Positions 1,515 to 13,791 of a DNA stretch of 64,000 bases are shown in pieces. Position numbers and translations under genes: made by a program. Under the pieces are notes generated by a model, which saw nothing but the letters and a program-made list of their open reading frames with translations, had not been told where the DNA came from and did no database searches. Each line of letters begins with the position of its first letter. Position 1 is the first letter of the stretch. Source of the DNA: Niabella aurantiaca DSM 17617 (GTDB taxonomy: Bacteria; Bacteroidota; Bacteroidia; Chitinophagales; Chitinophagaceae); the NCBI RefSeq assembly GCF_000374125.1, contig NZ_KB893625.1:248001-312000 (forward strand). The letters run 5' to 3'.

Positions 1515-4500
1515 ATGAAAAGAGGTTGCTTCTGTATGACGGTACTGCTGTTCTTTTGCCTGTCCCTGACTGCGCAAAAAAAAGCGGTGATCCGTGAGCT
1601 GAAAAAAAGTTATGTGACCTATCCTTTCTCAGATCCGAACCCGGTTCCGTCCTTTGAAAAAATATATCCCTATTTCCGGTTTGATGGCTTTACGGCAACG
1701 CCTGTCCGGAAGGAATGGAAGGTGGTGCAACTGGAGAATGATTTTATCCGGGTGGAAGTGTTTCCGGAGATCGGGGGCAAGGTATGGTCTGCTTATGACA
1801 AAGTGCACCGGCGGTATTTTCTGTACAATAACCGTGTGGTAAAGTTCAGGGACATTGCGATGCGCGGTCCCTGGACCAGCGGGGGTGTTGAATTTAACTA
1901 TGGGGTGATCGGCCATACGCCCAACACGGCCACTCCGGTTGATTACAAATTGAGCACCGCTGAAGATGGTAGTGTCAGCTGCATTATCGGATGCCTGGAG
2001 ATGCTGACCCGGACCCGCTGGAATGTGGAGATCAAACTGGAAAAAGATAAGGCCTTTTTTACAACCCGCTCGTTCTGGTTCAATGCCACTGCTACGGACC
2101 AACCCTATTACCAGTGGTCCAATTCGGCGGTCTATGCAAAAAAAGACCTGCAACTGGTGTACCCCGGTACCGCAGCGATCGGTCACTCCGGTGAGGTGGT
2201 TCAGTGGCCCTATGATACCGCTGCCGGAAAGGATGTTGCGCAATGGAAAGAGAACGACTATGGCGGTTCCAAATCCGTTCACGTCATCAATAGTGGTAAG
2301 CCGTATTTTGGAGCATACTGGAAGGGGGAGGATTTCGGAATGCTGCATTATACGGCCAGTGATGAAAAGCTGGGGCGGAAAATGTTTTCCTGGGCCCTGA
2401 GCGATCAGGGGGATATCTGGAAGGAGCTGCTGACAGACAGTGACGGGCAATATGTAGAGATGCAAAGTGGCCGGCTGTTCAATCAGAACTCGATATCCAG
2501 CAGCCGGACGCCGTTCAAACAAACACAGTTCGTTCCCTATGGCGCCGATCAATGGACGGAGTACTGGTATCCCTTTGTCGGAACGGGTGGCGTTACAGAT
2601 GCAAATGAGATCGGTGTTGCGGGGATCGACGGCGCAGCACTCCGGATTGCTCCCCTGGCTTTTATAAAAGATACGTTGTACATACGCGACCGGAAAGGAG
2701 CCGTGCTGTACGCACAGTGGGCGGAATTGCAACCGCTGGTCACCAAGACCTTTGAGGCGGGACTGTCTGCCGGTCAGTGGAAGGACGCCACCGTTCACCT
2801 GGCGGGATATACATGGACGGTGAATGATAAGGCATTGCAGCGACCGCTTACCGCTCCTGAAGATTTTAACTGGAACACCGGGTATGGATTGTATATGCAG
2901 GCACGGGATCTGACGGGACTGAAGAATTATCCGGAGGCGGAAATAAAAGTACGGCAGGCATTGGAGAAGGATAAAAATTATGTTCCGGCGCTGACCTTGT
3001 TGTCGCAGCTGCTTTATAACCGGATGCAATACGATTCAGCTTTTAACATTGCAAAGCGGGCGCTGAGCATCGACACCTACGATGCGGCGGCCAACTATTA
3101 TTACGGATTGTCGGCGTTCAAGACAGGAAGGATCAATGATGCGATCGACGGTTTTGATGTGGCGGCTCTTACTTCGGGGTTCAGAAGTGCGGCTTATACA
3201 CAAATGAGCAGGATCTTTTTTCTGCAGAAGGATTATACCGGTTCATTGAAATACGCCGAAAAATCGTTGCTCAATAACCGCCGGAATATAGAAGGGCTGC
3301 AGTTGAAGTACCTGGTCAACCGGATAACGGGAAAAGAAAATACAGCGGTCGAAAAAGTGATCGCAGCGGCAGAGCCACTGAATACATTCCTGTTGTTTGA
3401 AAAATATTACCGGGATCCGGGAGCCGCCGCCGCAAAAGCACTGGCCGCACCTATCCGGAATGAATTCCCGTACCAGACCTACCTGGAGCTGGCCATCTGG
3501 TACAACCAGCTCGGGCGTATCGAAGAGGCCAAACAACTGTTGACCTTGTCGCCGGATCATAATGAGCTGCAGTATTGGCGGGCCTATCTAAACCGGGATC
3601 AGGCTGCGGGTACCACCTATTTGGAACAGGCCCTTTCGGCGGACCCGGATTTCGTGTTCCCCTTCAGGGAAGAGTCGGGGCCGGTGTTCGACTGGGCAGC
3701 CAGCCATACAAAAAGCTGGAAGCCGGTGTACCTGCGTGCACTGCTGCACCTCGCAAAAAATAACCGAAGCGAAGCCCGGCAGTTACTGGAAGGCATCCAT
3801 GAGCCGTTGACCTTTGCTCCGTTTTATATTGTGCGGGCCTCATTGGATGAAGATACCGCTTTACAACGCCGGGATCTGGAGCGTGCCAGAGAAACCGGCA
3901 ACGGATGGCGGTATCAAAACTACCTCACGCGCTATTATCTCTCTGCCGGTGCGTATAATAAGGCATTACAGGTGATTGAGCCGTATTGCCGGAAGCATCC
4001 GGAAGATTATATCAATGGCATGTTGTATGTGCGGGCATTGATGCGCAACAACCGGTATGCGGATGCTAACCAGGTATTGCAGCAATTACAGATCCTGCCT
4101 TTTGAAGGGGCCGGGGAAGGAAGAAGGCTTTATGAAGAAACAAAGCTGGTGCTGGCACTGGAAGCGCTTGGTCATAAGAAGCACACAGATGCACTGCGCT
4201 ATATAAAGGAGGCCGGGCTGTGGCCGCGCAATATGGGCGCGGGCAAACCTTATGACGATCTTATCGATAACCGGCTGGAACAGTTCTTTGAAGCGGTTGT
4301 CAGGATCAGCATGAAAAGAGAGCCGGAAGGAAGCGCCCTGCTGCAACAGGTTGCGGCTTCAGATAAGGCAGTAGCCTCTGTCAATACCCTGGCACAGGTA
4401 GCTGCGCTGGTATGGCTGAACCGGAAGGAAGCAGCAGCAGCGCTGTTTGACAAATGGGCCGCAGGCCAGAAGGATGCCGGCAGGGTACGTTGGGGAAAAC

Positions 4501-4601
4501 GTTTCCTGAATGAGCCGCTGATTGGCCGGAAGCCGGATCTGGACCTGTTCACGCAGCTGGTAAGGACGATTACGGAAGCAGAAGACAGACCCTTGTTTTG
4601 A
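1515..4601 (+). CDS. DUF5107 domain protein with C-terminal TPR repeats
   Basis: A 1028-residue exported protein. Residues 1-20 form a signal peptide ending at LTAQ. Residues about 45-340 match the DUF5107 domain as I know it: a galactose-mutarotase-like beta-sandwich with phrases such as IGGKVWSAYDK and GGVEFNYG. From about residue 470 the chain becomes repeated helix pairs of tetratricopeptide type (for example YPEAEIKVRQALEKD and MQYDSAFNIAKRALSID). DUF5107 proteins are found next to glycoside hydrolases and are thought to bind or act on sugars, but the reaction is not established. The next gene, 109 bases on, is a DUF4091 protein in the same direction, so the two are probably co-transcribed. 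An open frame of 466 codons on the opposite strand is a shadow. Confidence 0.85.
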   Translation: MKRGCFCMTVLLFFCLSLTAQKKAVIRELKKSYVTYPFSDPNPVPSFEKIYPYFRFDGFTATPVRKEWKVVQLENDFIRVEVFPEIGGKVWSAYDKVHRRYFLYNNRVVKFRDIAMRGPWTSGGVEFNYGVIGHTPNTATPVDYKLSTAEDGSVSCIIGCLEMLTRTRWNVEIKLEKDKAFFTTRSFWFNATATDQPYYQWSNSAVYAKKDLQLVYPGTAAIGHSGEVVQWPYDTAAGKDVAQWKENDYGGSKSVHVINSGKPYFGAYWKGEDFGMLHYTASDEKLGRKMFSWALSDQGDIWKELLTDSDGQYVEMQSGRLFNQNSISSSRTPFKQTQFVPYGADQWTEYWYPFVGTGGVTDANEIGVAGIDGAALRIAPLAFIKDTLYIRDRKGAVLYAQWAELQPLVTKTFEAGLSAGQWKDATVHLAGYTWTVNDKALQRPLTAPEDFNWNTGYGLYMQARDLTGLKNYPEAEIKVRQALEKDKNYVPALTLLSQLLYNRMQYDSAFNIAKRALSIDTYDAAANYYYGLSAFKTGRINDAIDGFDVAALTSGFRSAAYTQMSRIFFLQKDYTGSLKYAEKSLLNNRRNIEGLQLKYLVNRITGKENTAVEKVIAAAEPLNTFLLFEKYYRDPGAAAAKALAAPIRNEFPYQTYLELAIWYNQLGRIEEAKQLLTLSPDHNELQYWRAYLNRDQAAGTTYLEQALSADPDFVFPFREESGPVFDWAASHTKSWKPVYLRALLHLAKNNRSEARQLLEGIHEPLTFAPFYIVRASLDEDTALQRRDLERARETGNGWRYQNYLTRYYLSAGAYNKALQVIEPYCRKHPEDYINGMLYVRALMRNNRYADANQVLQQLQILPFEGAGEGRRLYEETKLVLALEALGHKKHTDALRYIKEAGLWPRNMGAGKPYDDLIDNRLEQFFEAVVRISMKREPEGSALLQQVAASDKAVASVNTLAQVAALVWLNRKEAAAALFDKWAAGQKDAGRVRWGKRFLNEPLIGRKPDLDLFTQLVRTITEAEDRPLF

Positions 4602-4710
4602 CCGGCCCGCTCCGGTACCGTTTGTTCCGTAAGATACCCGCAACCGGAGGCCCGGGGCTTTAAAAAATGAATCAGACTCATCAATATAAAACCTGTCAAA
4701 TTAAAAGATC

Positions 4711-6429
4711 ATGATCAGAAAGTTATGGCTGCTGGCGATAGTTTTTTCGTTTACAAAAGGATATGGGCAACGTAGCGCAGACCTGTACCAGGTGGATGCA
4801 CTGGAAAAGATATTCAAAGAAAGGGCCTATTTTCCCCCGCTTCAGGACGATACGATCCGTGCGGCGGCAGGAGAAACGGCATCCATTCAGCTGGTGCTGA
4901 GGGCCAACCGGCCGGTCAGGGGGCTATCATCCCGGGCGGTTTGTTTACCCGGCAATGCCTCAAAGCTTACCGCCAAAACGGGCTGGGTCACCTATGTGCC
5001 TGTCGGGCGAAGCTATACACCGGCTTCAAAAGACCTGCTGCGTTCGGTTTCCGGCTATTTCCCCGATCCGATCGTGGATGATACATTGCTGACGCTCGCC
5101 CAGGGGGAGATCAATCCCCTGTGGGTATCCATTCCCATACCGGCAACCACCGCGGCCGGCATCTACAAGATACAGGTAAGCGTAAACGGGCTGGTAAATG
5201 GGAAAAAAGAACGGTTCCTGCGCACGGTTCCGGTTAAAGTGTATCCCGTAAAAGTGCCGGAGACTTCGTTGTGGATCAGCAACTGGTCGGCTCATTTTAG
5301 TCCCGTATCGCTGGAGCTGCTGAACAAGGGAAATAAAGTAACCCTGTATTCACCGTTGTACTGGCAACTGCTGAAAGTGCATGCCGATATAATGGCGGCA
5401 CACAACCAGAACGTGCACCGGATCTATGCGGCCTGGAATACCAAATACACGTTGCAAAACGGGAAATATACTTTTGATTTTGCCAACTTCGATAAGGAAG
5501 CGGAGCTGTTTGAAAGAGCCGGGGCATTGAAACGGATCGAGGGCGGCCACCTTGCCTGGAGGTCCGGGGCCTGGGATGATCCTTTTTTTGTAGAAGTACC
5601 GCTGGAAGACAATGAAGCAACAAGGAAATTGAAGCCGGGTCCCAACCCGTCCGCGTATCTGTATGGCATGCGGTCCGTGCTCCTGCCGGTAACCGATGCA
5701 AGGGCACAGAATTTTCTCGACCAGTTCCTGCCGGCTTTAAAAGCGCACCTGGCGCAAAAAGGCTGGCTGGAGAAATACATACAGCATATTTCGGATGAGC
5801 CAACGGCGAAGAACGCACCGTCCTATGTAGCCATCAGCAGCTATGTAAAAAAGTATTTACCGGGTGTAAAGATCATGGATGCCGTGCTTACTTCAAAAGA
5901 ATTGAAGGATGGCATTGATGTATGGGTACCGGTGCTGGATGTGTTTCACAAGGATTATACCTTTTACCAGGAGCTGCAAAAGAGCGGGAAGGAGGTGTGG
6001 TTCTATACCTGTGTGGGACCGCGGGGAAACTACGCCAACCGGTTTATTGAGCAACCGCTGATCCAGACGCGGTATCTGCACTGGATCAATTATAAATACG
6101 GAGCCACGGGGTATTTGCACTGGGGGCTGAACTATTGGGGCGGACGGGACCCGCTAAGGGATGATGCCTCCCGCGACCGCGGCAAACTTCCTGCAGGCGA
6201 CGCCAATATCGTATATCCCGGCTATAAAAAATTGTACACTTCAATCCGCTTTGAGGCCATGCGCGACGGGATCTATGATTATGAGCTTTTAAAGATGATG
6301 GAAAAAAAGGATGCCGCCCGGGCAAAGGGATTTGTAAACGACCTGATCATGAATTTCAATGCTTACGACAACAGCATCCGTTATTTCCGGAAAATAAGGA
6401 AACAGTTGCTGGAAGCGCTGGCGATGTGA
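4711..6429 (+). CDS. DUF4091 protein, GH123-like glycoside hydrolase fold
   Basis: A 572-residue exported protein with a signal peptide at residues 1-20 (MIRKLW...GYGQ). An N-terminal beta-rich domain (about 30-190) is followed by the DUF4091 region, which belongs to the GH123-like clan of beta-N-acetylgalactosaminidases. The motif HISDEP near residue 360 supplies the adjacent Asp-Glu pair typical of these substrate-assisted enzymes. Near the C-terminus, YLHWGLNYWGG and FEAMRDGIYDYELL are characteristic DUF4091 phrases. It follows the DUF5107/TPR gene and likely works in the same sugar pathway in the periplasm or at the surface. The true substrate cannot be read from sequence. Confidence 0.83.
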   Translation: MIRKLWLLAIVFSFTKGYGQRSADLYQVDALEKIFKERAYFPPLQDDTIRAAAGETASIQLVLRANRPVRGLSSRAVCLPGNASKLTAKTGWVTYVPVGRSYTPASKDLLRSVSGYFPDPIVDDTLLTLAQGEINPLWVSIPIPATTAAGIYKIQVSVNGLVNGKKERFLRTVPVKVYPVKVPETSLWISNWSAHFSPVSLELLNKGNKVTLYSPLYWQLLKVHADIMAAHNQNVHRIYAAWNTKYTLQNGKYTFDFANFDKEAELFERAGALKRIEGGHLAWRSGAWDDPFFVEVPLEDNEATRKLKPGPNPSAYLYGMRSVLLPVTDARAQNFLDQFLPALKAHLAQKGWLEKYIQHISDEPTAKNAPSYVAISSYVKKYLPGVKIMDAVLTSKELKDGIDVWVPVLDVFHKDYTFYQELQKSGKEVWFYTCVGPRGNYANRFIEQPLIQTRYLHWINYKYGATGYLHWGLNYWGGRDPLRDDASRDRGKLPAGDANIVYPGYKKLYTSIRFEAMRDGIYDYELLKMMEKKDAARAKGFVNDLIMNFNAYDNSIRYFRKIRKQLLEALAM

Positions 6430-6468
6430 GAATTTGAGAATGTGGGAAATGTGAAAATATGGGAATGA
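6425..6468. repeat. Dispersed repeat, copy 1
   Basis: The purine-rich stretch containing GTGAGAATTTGAGAATGTG matches, in inverted orientation, the stretch at 18601-18638. The two copies differ by a few substitutions and a short internal expansion. It begins at the stop codon of the DUF4091 gene. Confidence 0.6.
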
Positions 6469-6799
6469 TAAGGGACTCCAACATTAGACGATCTTAAGCC
6501 AGGTTCAATAATATTCAACTCATCAGAACCGACAATCCGGTGTACAATTTGAAAATTTGAACGACTGAGGCGGGAGTCATACTGAACCGGCATCAAAATT
6601 ATTTTTATCCATTTATGGGCCGGGCAATGAGGACACTGCCCCAGGGCGCGGGCCAAGGTTTGTGGAGACACAAACCCTTTAACAGGAGAGCCATTTTAAT
6701 AAAATAGATACCGGTCTATTATCAGATTCCCCTCAAAAAAACAAAATCCCAGGGATCTCAAACTGATAAGCAAGACACTGATAGCGAAAAGCTAACCCC
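6430..6799. other. Convergent intergenic region
   Basis: This lies between the ends of the DUF4091 gene (+) and the coiled-coil gene (-). Apart from the dispersed repeat at its start I see no gene, RNA or clear terminator hairpin. Confidence 0.5.
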
Positions 6800-7990
6800 T
6801 TAAACCTTATACATCCTGTTCGCAGAATTGATGTACTCCAGCGGATCAAAGGTTTTATCAAATGATTCCTGCAGCTCTTTCATCTTAATTTCCAGGTCCT
6901 TGATACGGCTTCCCAGTTGCGGGTCCGTACGGTATTTTTCAAACAGTTCCTTATACTTTAAGAGGTTCTGGCTGATACGGAAAGTGACCTGGCCAAAGCG
7001 CTGTTTCAGGGATTGTACATCGTTCATCTGTACATAAGCTGCCTGGCGCCATTCTTTGGGATTGGTTTTCTTTTCGTTGGCCACAAATTTGGCGGCTTCG
7101 TCCCTTACCCGGGTGAGGTATTGATAACGCCTTTCTGCATCGTTCTGCCGGGAAAAGTTGTTGTTAAAATCAGCCTGCGATATCTTTATGATGCCGAGGT
7201 TCTCCTTCAGCGACTTGTCATATTTTTTCTGAAGATCCTGCAGTTCGGCAGTAATGGCTTCCCATTCGTTTTCGATCTGGCCATTGTCAAAGTTAAACTG
7301 GCTGATCTTCATGGTAAGCGTCAGCATCTCTTCGCTTTGTGCCTTCAGCGCTTTTTCCTTTTTCCCAATATTATCAATATAAGTGGTCATGCTCGAAAAC
7401 AGGGCGGACGTGATGGGGCCGGTAACCGGTACCCCTTTGCTAAAACCGCTGGCAAAGGTGAGCAGGTTGCTGGTTACATTCAGCACCGGGCTTTCCGTCT
7501 TTTTTTCCTTTACAAATGCGGCGTACGAATTGTACCATTTTGTGTAGCCGTCATAATTCATGGGGTTGCCGGTTTCGCTCAATGAATTAAAAAAAGCTTT
7601 GGTAGAATTAAAAAGGACCAGGGGTTTGATCTCCCTTTCCATGGAAATAAGATTGACCATGGCCGACTGGTAATTGGCCTGGAAGATATTCAGCTCATTT
7701 TGCTCGATCGCTTTTTGTTTTTCTTCCACTGCCTTCACCCGCAAAACCAGTTTGTCTGCCTTCTCCCTTACATCGTTTGACTGGTTAATGGACTTGTCGA
7801 GTGCCGACATCCGCTGGTCCAGCTGTGATACCGTGGAGTCGAAAGACTTGGTCTTTGCCGTAAAATTCTTCTGAATATCTGCCAGCACCTTGTCCCGCAG
7901 CGATTGGGCGCCGGTAACAGAGGTATCCTGCGCGCCGGCTGTTAATGAAAAATAAAGAACGCCTGTCAATACCGCAAACTTTTTCATCAT
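6800..7990 (-). CDS. Exported coiled-coil protein of unknown function
   Basis: A 396-residue protein with a signal peptide (MMKKFAVLTG to about residue 20, AGAQD). Most of the chain is charged and helical with heptad-like spacing: residues about 30-130 (FDSTVSQLDQRMSALDKSI, VKAVEEKQKAIEQNELN), about 215-290, and a final helix ELQESFDKTFDPLEY. A central, less charged part around 165-195 contains LLTFASGFSKGVPVTGPI. I do not recognise a named family. The two leading ATG codons at 7990 and 7987 are equivalent choices. It is probably a periplasmic structural or scaffolding protein. The adjacent receiver gene on the same strand is about 190 bases upstream, so co-transcription is uncertain. Confidence 0.75.
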   Translation of the reverse strand: MMKKFAVLTGVLYFSLTAGAQDTSVTGAQSLRDKVLADIQKNFTAKTKSFDSTVSQLDQRMSALDKSINQSNDVREKADKLVLRVKAVEEKQKAIEQNELNIFQANYQSAMVNLISMEREIKPLVLFNSTKAFFNSLSETGNPMNYDGYTKWYNSYAAFVKEKKTESPVLNVTSNLLTFASGFSKGVPVTGPITSALFSSMTTYIDNIGKKEKALKAQSEEMLTLTMKISQFNFDNGQIENEWEAITAELQDLQKKYDKSLKENLGIIKISQADFNNNFSRQNDAERRYQYLTRVRDEAAKFVANEKKTNPKEWRQAAYVQMNDVQSLKQRFGQVTFRISQNLLKYKELFEKYRTDPQLGSRIKDLEIKMKELQESFDKTFDPLEYINSANRMYKV

Positions 7991-8180: not shown

Positions 8181-8651
8181 TCAGGAAAGAAGGGATTGCC
8201 GGAGCAGGAATTCCATTTGCCGGTTATTTTCCTCCAGTTTTTCGGCGATTTGTTTTTTCGACAGGTTAAATGTGTACAACTCCAGCCCCTCCATGATGGT
8301 TTGTCTGAGGAGGGCCTCTTCCCAGGGCTTTTGGATGTATTTGAACACCCTTCCTTTGTTGATGGCATCCACCACAGCATTGATGTCTGCGTACCCTGTA
8401 AGCAGCATCCGGATAATATCCGGGTAGTCATTTATAATGGATTCCAGAAATTCGATACCCGTGGTTTCAGGCATTCTCTGGTCGGTGATGATCAGATGGA
8501 TCTTCTGTTCCTTTAATATTTGTAAGGCTTTGGCCACGCTTTGGGCCGTAAACACAGAAAAATCGCGCCTGAAACAGGCCTTGAAGGAATTCAGGTTATG
8601 AATTTCGTCATCAACATACAAAACGTTTGAATACTGAAGACTTTGCTCCAT
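8181..8651 (-). CDS. Single-domain response regulator
   Basis: A 156-residue protein consisting of a receiver domain and a short coiled C-terminus with no DNA-binding domain. Acidic pocket residues lie in YVDDE (about 14-15), the phospho-acceptor is Asp57 in ITDQRMPE, Thr85 is in LLTGY, and the conserved Lys108 is in YIQKPW. The C-terminal helix KKQIAEKLEENNRQMEFLL could serve for dimerisation or partner binding. It is closely similar to the receiver domain of the hybrid protein encoded at 12697-13791 (shared VLYVDDE, NLNSFKA, DQRMPE, LLTGY). It is divergently transcribed from the ThiF-GNAT-kinase operon, 68 bases apart, which suggests it belongs to the same signalling system. Confidence 0.88.
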   Translation of the reverse strand: MEQSLQYSNVLYVDDEIHNLNSFKACFRRDFSVFTAQSVAKALQILKEQKIHLIITDQRMPETTGIEFLESIINDYPDIIRMLLTGYADINAVVDAINKGRVFKYIQKPWEEALLRQTIMEGLELYTFNLSKKQIAEKLEENNRQMEFLLRQSLLS

Positions 8652-8675
8652 AATTTATTTTGGAATTAATTTGTG

Positions 8676-8683
8676 TAAGTTTG
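8676..8683 (+). promoter_or_regulatory. TAnnTTTG promoter box of the ThiF operon
   Basis: TAAGTTTG fits the Bacteroidota -7 box TAnnTTTG and lies 36 bases before the chosen start at 8720. It sits inside the long open frame, which supports starting the protein at 8720 and not at 8660. A clear -33 TTTG at ideal spacing is not evident. Confidence 0.45.
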
Positions 8684-8719
8684 CGTCTATATTGTATAAA
8701 TCAAAATTACTTAATATTT

Positions 8720-9841
8720 ATGGAAAAAAGCGCAGCTGCTCATGAATCCGCTTGGCTGCAGGCGGCATCCGCCTCCGATAATGTTTACAGACCCTTGTTT
8801 TTCAGGATATACCACGAAGAAGAGCGGCAACGGTTTTGGGAACTTCGGCGCACCGTAAAAGACCTGACTATTTATGATCAGATCGCAAATCAACTGCTTG
8901 AATACATAAAGATTTCTTATTTTACAAGACTAAAGCCCGGCGACGACCCGGGCCGGTTTATGGAGGAAGCGCTGGGGGGGCTTACCCCGGAAGAATACGG
9001 GGTTTGGGTATATTACCCCTGGTCAAAAAAAATGGTGCACCTGCTGGATGAGGAAGCGTTCATTGCCGTGAGAACCAGCAGGAACACGTATAAGATCACC
9101 CCTGAGGAAAGGGATATCCTCCGGACAAAGAAAATAGGGGTCATCGGCTTATCGGTAGGCCAGTCGATTGCTTTTACGCTTGCCATGGAGCGGGTATGTG
9201 GTGCCCTGCATCTGGCTGATTTTGATGCCATTGAACTCAGCAATATGAACCGTTTGAATGTGGCGGTACAGGACATCGGGTTGAATAAAGCGGTCCTGGC
9301 TGCACGGAAGATCGCAGAGCTGGATCCCTTTCTGGATGTCCGCTGCTTCGAGGAAGGGATCACGGACGAGAATCTGGATGCCTTTTTTTCGGAGAACGGA
9401 AAAATTGACATCCTTGTTGAAGAATGCGACGGTATTGATGTAAAAATATCCAGCAGGTTAAAAGCCCGGTCGCTGGGAATACCGGTGGTAATGGATACAA
9501 ACGACCGGGGAATGCTGGATGTGGAGCGGTTTGACCTGGAGCCGGAAAGGCCCATATTCCATGGCAGTATTGACGAAGGGATGGACACCGAAAAACTAAA
9601 AGGATTGTCAAATGAAGAAAAAATTGTTATTCTGGGCAAGATATTTGATCTTACAAAAATTTCTGACAGAATGAAAAGATCACTTGGAGAAATGAACAAA
9701 ACAATAAATGCTTGGCCGCAACTTGCCTCTTCCGTTGTTTTGGGCGGAGCCATGGTTACGGATACCTGCAGAAGGATTTTACTGTCCGAGATACAGAGCT
9801 CCGGCAGGTATTATATTGATTTTAATGATTTAATAAAATAA
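8720..9841 (+). CDS. ThiF/E1-like adenylyltransferase (Rv1355c/MoeY-like)
   Basis: A 373-residue protein. An N-terminal helical region (1-135) is followed by a ThiF/MoeB-type Rossmann domain: GLSVGQS at 143-149, then LADFDAIELSNMNRL, GLNKA and EECDGIDVK, which supply the nucleotide loop, Arg, Lys and Asp of E1-like adenylating enzymes. The late motif RPIFHG resembles the ThiF half of Rv1355c-like proteins, which carry a nitroreductase domain absent here. No CxxC zinc pairs are present, so it is not a standard MoeB or ThiF. The start was moved from 8660 to the ATG at 8720 because of the promoter box and the lack of similarity before it. It would activate a carboxyl group with ATP. The GNAT gene follows after 11 bases, arguing that the two act on one pathway. 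Confidence 0.78.
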   Translation: MEKSAAAHESAWLQAASASDNVYRPLFFRIYHEEERQRFWELRRTVKDLTIYDQIANQLLEYIKISYFTRLKPGDDPGRFMEEALGGLTPEEYGVWVYYPWSKKMVHLLDEEAFIAVRTSRNTYKITPEERDILRTKKIGVIGLSVGQSIAFTLAMERVCGALHLADFDAIELSNMNRLNVAVQDIGLNKAVLAARKIAELDPFLDVRCFEEGITDENLDAFFSENGKIDILVEECDGIDVKISSRLKARSLGIPVVMDTNDRGMLDVERFDLEPERPIFHGSIDEGMDTEKLKGLSNEEKIVILGKIFDLTKISDRMKRSLGEMNKTINAWPQLASSVVLGGAMVTDTCRRILLSEIQSSGRYYIDFNDLIK

Positions 9842-9852
9842 GATACCGACCA

Positions 9853-10539
9853 TTGGAAATTGTAATAAGAGCGTTCAGAGCTACTACTGACCCCGTTACG
9901 TGTTTGAATTTTATCGAAGGTCATCGTCGGCTGCTTGAATTACATTTTGGCATTGTTGCCATTACATCCAGCAATCAGGACTGGATGTATCATGATAACA
10001 CATTTGTGATCGTTGCGGAAGATAAAGAAAGGACCAAAGTGTATGGCGGCGCAAGAGTTCAGATGGCAGACGGAAAACTGCAGCTGCCCATCGAAACAGC
10101 TATCAGCAAGTACGACCCGTCCGTACATACAATGGCCGGCCAGCCCGGGGTTTCGGAGATCTGCGGTTTATGGAATTCCACGGAGGTAGTGGGCTGGGGT
10201 ATTGGTAGTTTTTTTATGAGCCGTGCCGGGGTGGCAGTTGCCTGTATGCTGAAGTCTACCAAAGTGCTGTTTTTGGCGGCGCCCATTACCGTAAGAATGG
10301 GTAAGCGAATGGGGGCGGAGATTGAAACATCGCTGGGCAACAACGGGAACTTTTTTTATCCCAAGGACGACTTTATAGCCACTGCAATGGCGATCAACGA
10401 CTGCTCGGTCCTTTCGAAAGCCGATGAAAAAGAAAGAACCCGGATCTTTAATATCGTAGAGCGCCCGGTACAGCAAACACCGGAAGATGGTCCCAAAGGA
10501 CAGCTGATGGTAGACTATCAGCTGGATATAACCGGCTAA
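9853..10539 (+). CDS. GNAT-fold acyltransferase resembling LuxI/FeeM synthases
   Basis: A 228-residue protein starting with TTG 11 bases after the ThiF stop. No ATG is available near the N-terminus. The layout resembles the autoinducer-synthase branch of the GNAT fold (LuxI, FeeM): an N-terminal part with WMYHDNTFVIVAED, then VYGGARVQM, then a conserved acidic-aliphatic segment SEICGLWNS, then a helix-rich acyl-carrier region with FLAAPITVRMGKRMGAEI. LuxI-type enzymes show a similar order of (G)xxR, then E-(I/L)-x-R. The match is by pattern only, and the usual Arg after the Glu-Ile pair is not present. It may transfer an acyl group from acyl-ACP to an amine. The downstream kinase starts 4 bases after its stop, so synthesis and sensing genes appear tightly coupled. 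Confidence 0.6.
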   Translation: MEIVIRAFRATTDPVTCLNFIEGHRRLLELHFGIVAITSSNQDWMYHDNTFVIVAEDKERTKVYGGARVQMADGKLQLPIETAISKYDPSVHTMAGQPGVSEICGLWNSTEVVGWGIGSFFMSRAGVAVACMLKSTKVLFLAAPITVRMGKRMGAEIETSLGNNGNFFYPKDDFIATAMAINDCSVLSKADEKERTRIFNIVERPVQQTPEDGPKGQLMVDYQLDITG

Positions 10540-10543
10540 TGCA

Positions 10544-12682
10544 ATGTATAAGCTGATAACCATATTTTTTTTCTCTTTTTTTTTCGTTCGCGCAGAAGGA
10601 CAGCGTTTGACGAACATCGATGACAGTGAAAAAACATACCTGGTTACGCAAAGCCAAATTGAATACCTGGAAGATGGAAAAGGCCAGTATACGTTTCCGG
10701 AAGTAGCACAGCTGCCCTTTCAGTCCTTTAAAGGACAGGTGCCCAGTTTTTTTATAAGCCATTCTGTATTCTGGTTACGGATCCGGCTCCGGAACAACAC
10801 CGATATTTCCCGTCTGTTGATCGCGCTCAATCATCCCACACTGGATGAGGTTCAGTTCTTTGCAGTAAAAGAGGATACAACCATTCTCGATTCCGTCACC
10901 ATTTCGGAGGGGAAGCCATTTAACAGCCGGATCAATAAGAATCAGAATTACCTGTTTAATCTTTCCCTGGCAAAAGGCGGCGAGCAGCTGGTGTATATAA
11001 GACTGCGTGCAGGGGAACAGATACTCGTTCCCATAGAAGTGGGCGCCACCAAACCCGTTCGCGAAAGCCTGGCCATAAAAGACCTGGTCTTTGGTTTGTA
11101 CACCGGGCTGATTATGGTGATGTTCCTGTATAACTTTTTCCTGCTTTTTTCCACAAAGGACAAAAGTTATTTTTACTACATCCTCTATGTGCTCTTCGTA
11201 GGGTTGAGCCAGGCCATGCTGCAGGGGTATGCCTTCCGGTTTTTATGGCCCAATCATCCGGCAATCAATACCTATGCCAATGTAATGATCCCGTTCTTCA
11301 ACGGCATTGCTGCCGCAGAGTTTATAAGGCAGTTCCTGAACCTGAAACAGTTGTCTGCAAAGCTGAACCGGCGGATGCTGATCATTGAGGCTGCTTATTG
11401 TGTAGCCTTTGTGCTGAGTATTTTAAAACTCCAGCAGGAAGCCCAGGTTACAGTGCAATTTGTTGCGGCGGCCGGATCTGCTTACGTATTAGTGATGCTG
11501 AGCAGGCTGAGCTACCGGAAAATAAGAGTTGCAAGGATCCTGTTACTGGCATGGTCGGTATTCCTCTGCAGTGTGATCGTTTTTGTGCTCCGGAATGCCG
11601 GGTTGCTTCCTTACAATGACCTTACCTATTATGCGTTGCAGATCGGATCGGCAGTGGAGGCGGTACTTCTTTCCCTGGCGCTGGCAGACAAGATCAATAC
11701 CTATCGCCGCGAGGAGGAGCTGGCCCGGAAGGAAGCGTTACGCGTTTCAAGAGAGAACGAGCAACTGATAAAAGAACAGAACATTGTACTGGAAAAGGAA
11801 GTAAAAAGTCGTACAGAAGAGCTGCAGCAAACCAACGAGGAATTGAAAGAAGCCATGAACCAGATCCAGCATACACAGGCAAAACTGGTCGAAAATGAAA
11901 AAATGGCTTCGCTGGGTCAGCTGACAGCGGGGATCGCCCATGAGATCAATAACCCCATTAATTTCGTAACTTCAAACATCCGTCCCCTGGAAGCAGATGT
12001 TACAGATCTGCAACAGGTGATCCGGAGGTACGAAAAACTGGATCTGTCGAAGGAGCTGTCCTCCCAGCTGCAGGACATCGAAAAGTATAAAAAGGAGATC
12101 GACCTGGAATATGTTTATGAGGAAATAGCGATCCTTCTTTCGGGGATAAAGGAAGGAGCGAACCGCACTTCAGAGATCGTAAAAGGGCTGAAAAGTTTTG
12201 CAAGGGTCGACGAAGCCAGCTGGAAAAGTGTCAATCTCAATGAAGGGATCGAATCCACGCTCCTGCTGGTAAAGAACAGTTTTCCGCAAAAATTTCAGCT
12301 GGTAAAAGAGCTGGGTAACATCCCCCTGGTAGAATGTGAGCCAGGTAAAATCAACCAGGTGATCATGAATGTTGTTACCAATGCCGTTCAGGCCATATGC
12401 GAACGAATGCGGAAGGAGCCGGATATCGGCATACTGACCATTAAAACCTGGGAACAGGAAGGGCAGGTAAAGATCAGCATCGGAGACAATGGCTCGGGGA
12501 TGACGGAGGAGGTCCGGAACAAGATCTTTGATCCTTTTTTTACAACCAAGGATGTAGGGGAAGGAACCGGATTGGGCCTGTCCATCGTTCAGGGGATCAT
12601 CGAAAAGCACAATGGCTCCATTCAGGTATTTACAGAAACAGGAAGAGGTACTACCTTTATAATTAGTTTACCCGTTCGCTAA
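10544..12682 (+). CDS. 7TMR-DISM sensor histidine kinase
   Basis: A 712-residue membrane kinase. Residues 1-20 are a signal sequence, and about 25-175 form a 7TMR-DISMED2-type extracellular sensor ([31 protein letters not shown]). Seven hydrophobic helices follow at about 180-395, then a coiled coil (395-450, [20 protein letters not shown]). The dimerisation/phospho-acceptor helix holds His466 in GIAHEINNP, and the ATPase domain shows [25 protein letters not shown] and GTGLGLSI. The extracellular domain type is thought to bind small or carbohydrate-like ligands. It starts 4 bases after the GNAT gene and ends 14 bases before the hybrid receiver gene, so all are one operon. It likely detects a ligand connected to the two upstream enzymes. 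Confidence 0.9.
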
Positions 12683-12696
12683 AATACTGATGTTCC

Positions 12697-13791
12697 ATGA
12701 TGCCCGAAATTAATGTACTTTATGTAGATGATGAGCAGCAGAACCTCAATTCGTTCAAGGCTGCCTTCCGGACCAGGTACCGGGTCTTTACGGCTGTTTC
12801 TGTAGCTGCGGCGATGGATATACTGGACCGGGAGGAGATCCATGTGCTTATATCCGACCAGCGGATGCCTGAGATCACCGGCGTCGAATTCTTTAAAATG
12901 ACCAAGGAACAATATCCGCATATTCCCCGGGTGCTGCTCACCGGATATACCGATATAGAAGTGCTGGCTGAAGCCGTAAACCAGGGAGATATCTATCGGT
13001 ACATCACCAAGCCCTGGGATGAGCTGGAATTGCACAACAGTGTATTGAACGCATATGACCATTACAAAGCCAACCGTGACCTTCGGGAAAAGATCTCGGA
13101 ACTTCAGAAAGCCAATGACGGGCTGAACCGGTTTGTGTACAGCCTGTCGCATGAGTTAAGAGCGCCCATCGCCTCCGCAACAGGCATTCTTGACCTGGTG
13201 AAGATGGAAGGCAAAATGGATGACTCAGGGGAGTACTGGAAGTTGATGGATGCCTGCATTCAGAAGCTGGACTACTATGTATCCCAAACGGTTCAGTTTT
13301 ATAAAACGGCCCGTTTTAAAGTAGCGCAGGAGCAGATCCATTTTGAAGAGCTGGTGCGTTCCCTGATCGACCTGTACCGGACCTCCAATGGTACAAAGGG
13401 GATCCGGTTTGACGTGTCGGTTGAAGAAGCCCACGTCTTTTACGGGGATGTTTTCCGGATCGAGATCGTTCTTGCCAACCTGCTTTCCAACGCCATCAAA
13501 TGCCAGCGCTCCGGGGAGCCCGATAAAAAAGTAGTGGTCCGGATCGTCACGGCAGACGATGGCGCCCGTATCACTGTAGCCGACAACGGAACAGGTATGG
13601 ATACGGCAGAAACGGAAAAGATCTTCGATCCCTTTTTTAAGGGAGCGCAGCCCGGCGGTCTGGGGCTGGGATTGTACATCCTGCGGGAAGCGCTGGAAAA
13701 GCTCAACGGAACCGTAACGGTCGATTCCCGGAAAGGGGAGGGCACCGTATTTGAGATCTATATTCCCTCTAACCCTGAAAATAAGGGATAG
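12697..13791 (+). CDS. Receiver-histidine kinase hybrid
   Basis: A 364-residue cytosolic protein with an N-terminal receiver domain (Asp11-Asp12, phospho-acceptor Asp54 in ISDQRMPE, Lys105 in ITKPW), a linker helix, and a HisKA domain with His152 in SLSHELRAPI. The HATPase domain has NLLSNAIKC, DNGTGMD, FDPFFKG and GGLGLGLYI. No membrane segment is present. Putting the receiver before the kinase suggests that the 7TMR-DISM kinase phosphorylates this protein, which then passes the signal on. Its receiver is a close paralogue of the stand-alone receiver at 8181-8651, a natural candidate for the next step. No DNA-binding output domain is encoded in the cluster. Confidence 0.9.
   Translation: MMPEINVLYVDDEQQNLNSFKAAFRTRYRVFTAVSVAAAMDILDREEIHVLISDQRMPEITGVEFFKMTKEQYPHIPRVLLTGYTDIEVLAEAVNQGDIYRYITKPWDELELHNSVLNAYDHYKANRDLREKISELQKANDGLNRFVYSLSHELRAPIASATGILDLVKMEGKMDDSGEYWKLMDACIQKLDYYVSQTVQFYKTARFKVAQEQIHFEELVRSLIDLYRTSNGTKGIRFDVSVEEAHVFYGDVFRIEIVLANLLSNAIKCQRSGEPDKKVVVRIVTADDGARITVADNGTGMDTAETEKIFDPFFKGAQPGGLGLGLYILREALEKLNGTVTVDSRKGEGTVFEIYIPSNPENKG

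Follow-up and report, generated by a model that had tools for sequence, protein, structure and literature searches.

The described systems closest to the locus reported here are the oxazolone pathways TrzAS, OxzAB and TyzACB of Mycobacterium, Rhodococcus and Pseudoalteromonas, in which a ThiF enzyme of the Rv1355c family is encoded beside an acyltransferase-like gene. Rv1355c is TrzS, a cyclase-oxidase that converts N-acyl tryptophan into N-acyl tryptazolone, and its partner TrzA N-acylates tryptophan (PMC12856293). Oxazolones are hydrolysed by acid and also react with methanol (PMC12856293). TyzA, the equivalent of TrzA in a sister pathway, has FeeM and the acyl-homoserine lactone (AHL) synthase BjaI among its closest folds (PMC10404671), and N-acyl amino acid synthase genes elsewhere adjoin genes for ThiF, for a nitroreductase and, in Stieleria, also for a methyltransferase (PMC12479983). 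The role of oxazolones has been named one of the main unresolved questions, and the same authors noted that these compounds resemble signalling molecules (PMC12856293, 2025). Here we describe a five-gene cassette of Niabella aurantiaca, located at positions 8181-13791 of a 64,000-nucleotide stretch of its genome (the window; G000:C1:248001-312000, with G000 the label of this genome), in which an Rv1355c-family ThiF gene likewise lies beside a putative acyltransferase gene, of the GNAT-like kind. The Niabella ThiF lacks the oxidase half and the acyltransferase belongs to an unnamed family that is weakly alike; moreover, a sensor kinase and two receiver proteins are part of the cassette, whereas beside trzAS cyclic di-GMP (c-di-GMP) genes were noted (PMC12856293). 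We consider it likely that this is a quorum-sensing-like synthase-sensor cassette with a capped N-acyl amino acid as ligand, in Niabella probably a saturated oxazolone.

ComX of Bacillus subtilis is a modified peptide. In the ComQXPA system of this species, comQ and comX differ between types together with the 5′ end of comP (PMC6334282). Its enzymes differ in kind from those in Niabella, and the likeness lies in the pattern of variation. In the PhcBSRQ system of Ralstonia, a single synthase is likewise joined by a sensor kinase, a lone receiver and a receiver-kinase that has no DNA-binding domain, and the Niabella receivers, also free of a DNA-binding domain, are laid out like PhcR and PhcQ (PMC8578825). 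The genes phcB and phcS were reported to be under balancing selection (PMC6580516). In contrast to what we propose for Niabella, the Phc signal, produced by a single methyltransferase, is the methyl ester of a fatty acid, and the operon as described contains no ThiF or GNAT gene. Both likenesses are in the way of working and imply no membership.

The cassette consists of four genes on the plus strand and one divergent receiver gene. The ThiF gene (8720-9841), the gene for the 228 amino acid GNAT-like putative N-acyl amino acid synthase (9853-10539, TTG start), the gene for a 712 amino acid 7TMR-DISM sensor histidine kinase (10544-12682) and the gene for a 364 amino acid receiver-kinase with a PhcR-like layout (12697-13791) follow each other with spacers of 11, 4 and 14 bases. 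The stand-alone receiver of 156 amino acids with a PhcQ-like layout (Response_reg 4e-20) is encoded on the minus strand at 8181-8651. The open frame of ThiF spans 8660-9841 and reaches up to a TTG at 8660; ATG 8720 is the more likely start, since it gives the same length of 373 amino acids as in the four closest relatives. With this start, about 68 bases (8652-8719) lie between the divergent genes and presumably hold the promoter region. An earlier note on this DNA had described four same-strand genes with these gaps, and both the open reading frames (ORFs) and the spacers were confirmed. Its view of the proteins also held: the E1-like enzyme matched ThiF (PF00899, 5.9e-17), the seven-helix kinase with a ligand-binding-type domain matched 7TMR-DISM_7TM (2.8e-49) and DISMED2 (3.4e-24), and the receiver-kinase hybrid matched Response_reg, HisKA and HATPase. 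The two receivers described as close paralogues are 48% identical over 135 residues (lone receiver versus the receiver domain of the receiver-kinase), and the domain scan found no DNA-binding output in any of the five genes, as had been stated.

Comparison with close relatives showed that the two enzymes and the sensing half of the kinase vary together. In four close relatives (G005, G006, G010 and G014), the GNAT-like protein is 94-96% and the kinase 81-83% identical to that of the window. In a further genome, G015, the flanking and downstream proteins are as close to those of the window as in these four (GH123 protein 88%, coil protein 91%, receiver-kinase 85%, M3 peptidase 83%), and the acyl-CoA dehydrogenase is 87% identical to that of the window, compared to 89-91% in the four close relatives. 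Within the cassette, identity to G015 falls to 57% for ThiF, 45% for the GNAT-like protein and 54% for the whole kinase. The kinase itself is split, with 29% identity in the sensing half and 78% in the kinase half. Per 50 residues the identities are 24, 32, 20, 32, 38, 22 and 40%, followed by 66, 72, 94, 70, 76, 62, 90 and 83%, which places the break around residue 350 (20-40% before, 62-94% after). At the nucleotide level, blastn gave broken matches in the ThiF gene, none between 9769 and 11573, and an unbroken match from 11573 (codon 344) onward. Identity profile and blastn together delimit the exchanged, type-specific sensing half to approximately codons 1-343 of the kinase gene (10544-11572, plus strand).

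A second case was found in G008 and G016. These genomes are alike in the coil protein (94%), the M3 peptidase (90%), the receiver-kinase (83%) and the kinase half (88%), and unlike in ThiF (56%), the GNAT-like protein (53%) and the sensing half (27%). They are sisters in the trees of the M3 peptidase, the coil protein, the receiver-kinase and the kinase half with support of 99-100, whereas the sensing half rejected their grouping in an approximately unbiased (AU) test (7.8e-7). The clade defined by the flanking genes, supported at 99 by the M3 peptidase and at 100 by the receiver-kinase, was also rejected by the GNAT-like protein (3.6e-5), ThiF (0.022) and the sensing half (0.00099). Identity of the divergent receiver is 69% in G015, where it varies along with the block, and 90% between G008 and G016, where it does not. 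In two independent cases ThiF, the GNAT-like protein and the sensing half differ as one block, and the kinase gene contains the break. It appears that these parts were exchanged together between species.

The GNAT-like protein and the sensing half sort the genomes into the same two types. Type I comprises the window group, G016, G004 and G022, the latter from another genus, and type II comprises G015, G011, G008, G007 and G013, with G001 added by the GNAT-like protein only. ThiF does not sort cleanly into these types: in its weakly supported tree G004 falls with G015, G001, G007 and G013, while G008 and G011 are on the window side. Across 36 of the 44 loci described below (eight with broken, truncated or missing genes were set aside), GNAT distance correlated with sensing-half distance beyond the kinase half and the receiver-kinase (partial r 0.54, p 0.0005); the value for the receiver-kinase given the others was -0.09. 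A putative synthase is linked to a putative receptor with shared types, as in quorum-sensing systems, and types I and II may differ in signal specificity.

This pattern bears on the possibility that the cassette is a lipid or antibiotic biosynthesis locus beside an unrelated stress-sensing two-component system, with the oxazolone as end product and not as ligand. Stress links and antimicrobial N-acyl tyrosines have been discussed for other species, and the role of oxazolones was described as unknown (PMC12856293), which would fit such an arrangement. An unrelated sensor, however, has no reason to vary with the enzymes over just its sensing part and to remain conserved in its kinase part, and we regard this explanation as improbable.

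We next consider how widely the gene group is kept. The GNAT-like gene was found in 33 of 99 relatives, own genome included, and in 13 of 395 genomes sampled across the phylum, two of which were already among the 33. Mapping by tblastn therefore covered 44 distinct genomes (33 relatives and 11 new phylum genomes). In all 44 loci a 7TMR-DISM kinase gene lies downstream on the same strand, either directly or after one other cassette gene. Of these loci 37 have ThiF, and a receiver or receiver-kinase then follows in 43, the remaining locus (G001) reaching the contig edge. The following ORF is receiver-only in G017 and G069 and a receiver-PAS-kinase in G201. The best receiver match is divergent and upstream in 32 loci. 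Recurring in 44 genomes, the gene group is beyond chance, and the neighbourhood survey suggested in the earlier note thus returned a conserved neighbourhood. In its own genome the DISMED2 domain was matched once, by the kinase gene of the cassette, and 51 of the 99 relatives carry DISMED2 genes (0 to 6 per genome across the 99); such genes are too uncommon to explain the kinase linkage. Moreover, an Rv1355c-type ThiF half scoring at least 146 bits was found in 11 of the 395 phylum genomes, with at most two candidates scored per genome, and all 11 have the GNAT-like gene. The next ThiF matches (at most 111 bits) were oxidase-half or generic ThiF.

The ThiF of the window corresponds to the cyclase half of TrzS. 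It matched the Rv1355c family model NF005901 with 467 bits (protein 37-392 on model 5-339 of 722), missing the whole-protein cut-off of 476 by 9 bits, with the oxidase half absent. All 29 ThiF proteins scanned, that of the window included, matched this model at E<=1e-60 (34 members are intact), and the ThiF-oxidase fusions of loci L046 and L051 reached 781 and 790 bits. D257 is invariant in the 29 members; aligned with a Rhodococcus family member, it would correspond to D217 of TrzS, the conserved ATP-site aspartate. The window ThiF is 42-48% identical to members of the family encoded on plasmids of Streptomyces, Mycolicibacterium and Rhodococcus, with 70-99% of its length covered in the best rows. 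Fusion length (693-797 amino acids) was found in 11 of the 34 intact frames, window among the 34, and tblastn recognised the oxidase half in 10 of these 11, not in G041. With a query from L046, whose source genome G021 served as positive control, no homologue of the flavin oxidase half was found in G000 and 11 other Niabella genomes. Because the cyclase stands alone in these 12 genomes, the Niabella product is probably a saturated oxazolone ring. An anti-phage E1 defence system was also considered and rejected: ThiF gave only partial E1-E2 matches (12, the best at 30.5 bits), both receivers had one weak match each (PDC-M60B, 19-20 bits), and the GNAT-like protein and the DISM kinase had none.

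The GNAT-like protein had no Pfam or NCBIfam match at E<=0.1, and Acetyltransf_1 was listed for nine of 26 family members at E<=1, with 0.0068 as the best value. The alignment of these 26 members contains invariant positions, among them G23, H24, W44, G65, G66, E102, W107, Y169 and P170. The N. drilacis counterpart of the protein is 96% identical to it and that of N. pedocola 95%. Against P0006, an unnamed Rhodococcus plasmid protein that is TrzA-like only by its place next to an Rv1355c-family gene, hhalign gave a weak match of the family profile over 160 collinear columns (E 0.0015, probability 16.8%, score 28.8), compared to a best score of 23.6 among 120 control ORFs, which were all the eligible ones. 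The patterns E-x4-W and G-G-x-R-x-Q are common to both. Two Streptomyces proteins, P0007 (a GNAT beside ThiF) and P0011 (the GNAT part of a fusion), aligned only shortly and poorly with the family profile. No relative was found on plasmids at E<=1, and a PDB sequence search returned nothing for the single protein and profile matches of E 0.33 or worse. We treat it as an unnamed family of putative acyltransferases, with a weak family assignment.

The earlier note had called this protein LuxI/FeeM-like. LuxI membership was not supported: for none of the 26 members was a match to Pfam Autoind_synth or FeeM listed at E<=1, and by the profiles tested the protein is not a LuxI family member. The proposed chemistry, acyl transfer to an amino compound, is shared with LuxI/LuxR and FeeM systems; unlike in those, the presumed receptor is a kinase and not a LuxR protein. 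One could still suppose that the GNAT-like protein is a LuxI relative making homoserine lactone, with ThiF as an accessory. Its GNAT-like size and the invariant E102 are in line with this, although equating E102 with the LuxI glutamate is a guess, and FeeM and BjaI are fold relatives of TyzA (PMC10404671). Against the missing profile matches, a ThiF of the oxazolone family and a carboxyl-capping enzyme that would have no obvious use on an already closed lactone, an AHL system is very unlikely. The Rv1355c type of the ThiF points to oxazolones rather than AHLs.

Seven of the 44 loci lack ThiF. In three of these a methyltransferase gene takes its place, namely an ICMT/PEMT-type enzyme in G218 (ICMT 1.5e-19) and G471 (3.5e-18) and a class I S-adenosylmethionine-dependent methyltransferase in G017; two have neither gene, and two lie at a contig edge (G045 and G048). 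This suggests that a cyclase, a cyclase-desaturase and a carboxyl methyltransferase may serve as interchangeable capping enzymes. Interchangeable modifying enzymes would also be seen if the kinase sensed a foreign molecule, such as a toxin, an antibiotic or a host or plant compound, that the GNAT-like enzyme and ThiF or the methyltransferase inactivate or consume. This is the main rival explanation, and it would equally give co-exchange of the enzymes and the sensing half. The characterised family member, in contrast, builds its product from an endogenous amino acid and acyl-CoA (PMC12856293), and the GNAT-like gene, for which the 44 loci were selected, accompanies the sensor also in those that lack ThiF. 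We consider sensing and modification of a foreign molecule unlikely.

In the quorum-sensing-like reading that we prefer, the GNAT-like enzyme would N-acylate an amino acid or similar amine, and the Rv1355c-type ThiF would adenylate the carboxyl group of the N-acyl amino acid and close the oxazolone ring. In other lineages the ring may also be desaturated by the ThiF-oxidase fusion, or the carboxyl group capped by a methyltransferase. Whether by cyclisation or by methylation, the second enzyme would strip the carboxyl charge, giving a neutral, hydrophobic product that could reach the periplasmic DISMED2/7TM part of the downstream kinase. In this kinase DISMED2 (residues 37-166) and the 7TM domain (180-383) precede HisKA (from 457) and HATPase (602-711, 3.5e-25). 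All four domains were present in 35 of 35 kinases scanned; the residues that do not vary among 35 members include H466 and numerous positions of the ATPase part. Phosphate would then pass to the receiver-kinase and the lone receiver, which may act by protein contact. The enzymes and the sensing half would form one specificity module, swapped as a block to give signalling types (pherotypes). The earlier note had proposed that two enzymes make an acylated signal for the kinase; the oxazolone-family ThiF, the conserved neighbourhood and the block difference support this, and the LuxI membership was not supported. We infer acyltransferase activity, substrates, product, ligand binding, export, density behaviour and output from the genes, and the amino acid and acyl chain of the product cannot be read from their sequence.

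Several observations weigh against this reading. A saturated oxazolone would be reactive and short-lived, and no capping gene was found near the GNAT locus in G023 and G029. The GNAT assignment draws on weak signals and no curated family, and the hhalign probability to the TrzA-like protein is low. The AlphaFold model, built from the window protein and three relatives 95-96% identical to it, had a mean pLDDT of 31.1. Furthermore, the FeeM-like GNAT-ThiF fusion of Streptomyces fails to align with the GNAT-like protein. As to the block exchange, support for the flank-defined clade was 87 in the coil protein and 74 in the kinase half, the clade groups were taken from flank trees and set up after the identities had been seen, the trees were quick ones, and the GNAT tree has G015 on a long branch. 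All relatedness controls are located no more than about 6 kb from the cassette in the window. GNAT distance also correlated, more weakly, with kinase-half distance once the other distances were accounted for (partial r 0.32, p 0.004).

We also noted related arrangements elsewhere. On a plasmid of Streptomyces sp. NBC_01431 (L067, 5128-8042), a GNAT-like part is fused to a ThiF that is 47% identical to that of the window and lacks the oxidase half; the GNAT part gave Acetyltransf_1 0.0041 and FeeM 0.036, both under cut-off, and a beta-ketoacyl-ACP synthase III gene follows. On a plasmid of Streptomyces sp. NBC_01471 (L066, 4977-7874), a MerR regulator gene accompanies a ThiF without oxidase half (42% identical to that of the window), which is overlapped by 4 bases by a different GNAT (Acetyltransf_3). 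On plasmid pLP1 of Rhodococcus qingshengii (L068, 3820-8022), an Rv1355c-family gene has an unnamed TrzA-like gene and a GGDEF gene as neighbours. The receiver-kinase matched 4645 plasmid records, all below 60% identity, a set too large and too distant for use.

Near the cassette itself, the protein encoded at 6800-7990 of the window matched no family above cut-off; it is 83-93% identical in, and adjoins the cassette of, eight of 13 compared genomes. In four loci of family f28 (L089, L090, L091 and L092, approximately 2400-7300), an ORF of 520-573 amino acids with a weak receiver or receiver-kinase match and one of about 403-418 amino acids precede the divergent receiver, with an ORF of 142-143 amino acids between them in three of the four. 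The GNAT frame is broken in G002, G003 and G012 (completeness 91, 72 and 83%). In these assemblies several genes are broken at the loci concerned (L061, L063 and L064), the acyl-CoA dehydrogenase gene included, and together with the completeness values this makes assembly error likelier than pseudogenes; the conclusions draw on none of these broken frames.

Listings of open-licence PMC papers yielded nothing in which the making of oxazolones and a sensor kinase are joined into a signalling system, nothing alike for Niabella or Chitinophaga, and nothing on 7TMR-DISM proteins with quorum sensing. The individual parts are known; the literature searched did not show them combined, nor did it contain this unnamed synthase family, capping genes that replace one another or a pherotype-like structure. 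The wider idea is that oxazolones and capped N-acyl amino acids are cell-to-cell signals, made and read by a dedicated Bacteroidota synthase-receptor locus with recombining pherotypes, an exchangeable cap and a 7TMR-DISM kinase as reader. We hold this idea tentatively, as a little short of evenly balanced. With a sensor physically and evolutionarily tied to the presumed synthase, the question of the oxazolone role becomes testable in cultured soil Bacteroidota, where the natural type I and type II genomes offer built-in specificity controls. For Bacteroidota the cassette provides a candidate route of quorum sensing, and for a 7TMR-DISM receptor it provides candidate ligands. If the wider idea is true, oxazolones would gain their first physiological role, and quorum sensing a new class of signal.

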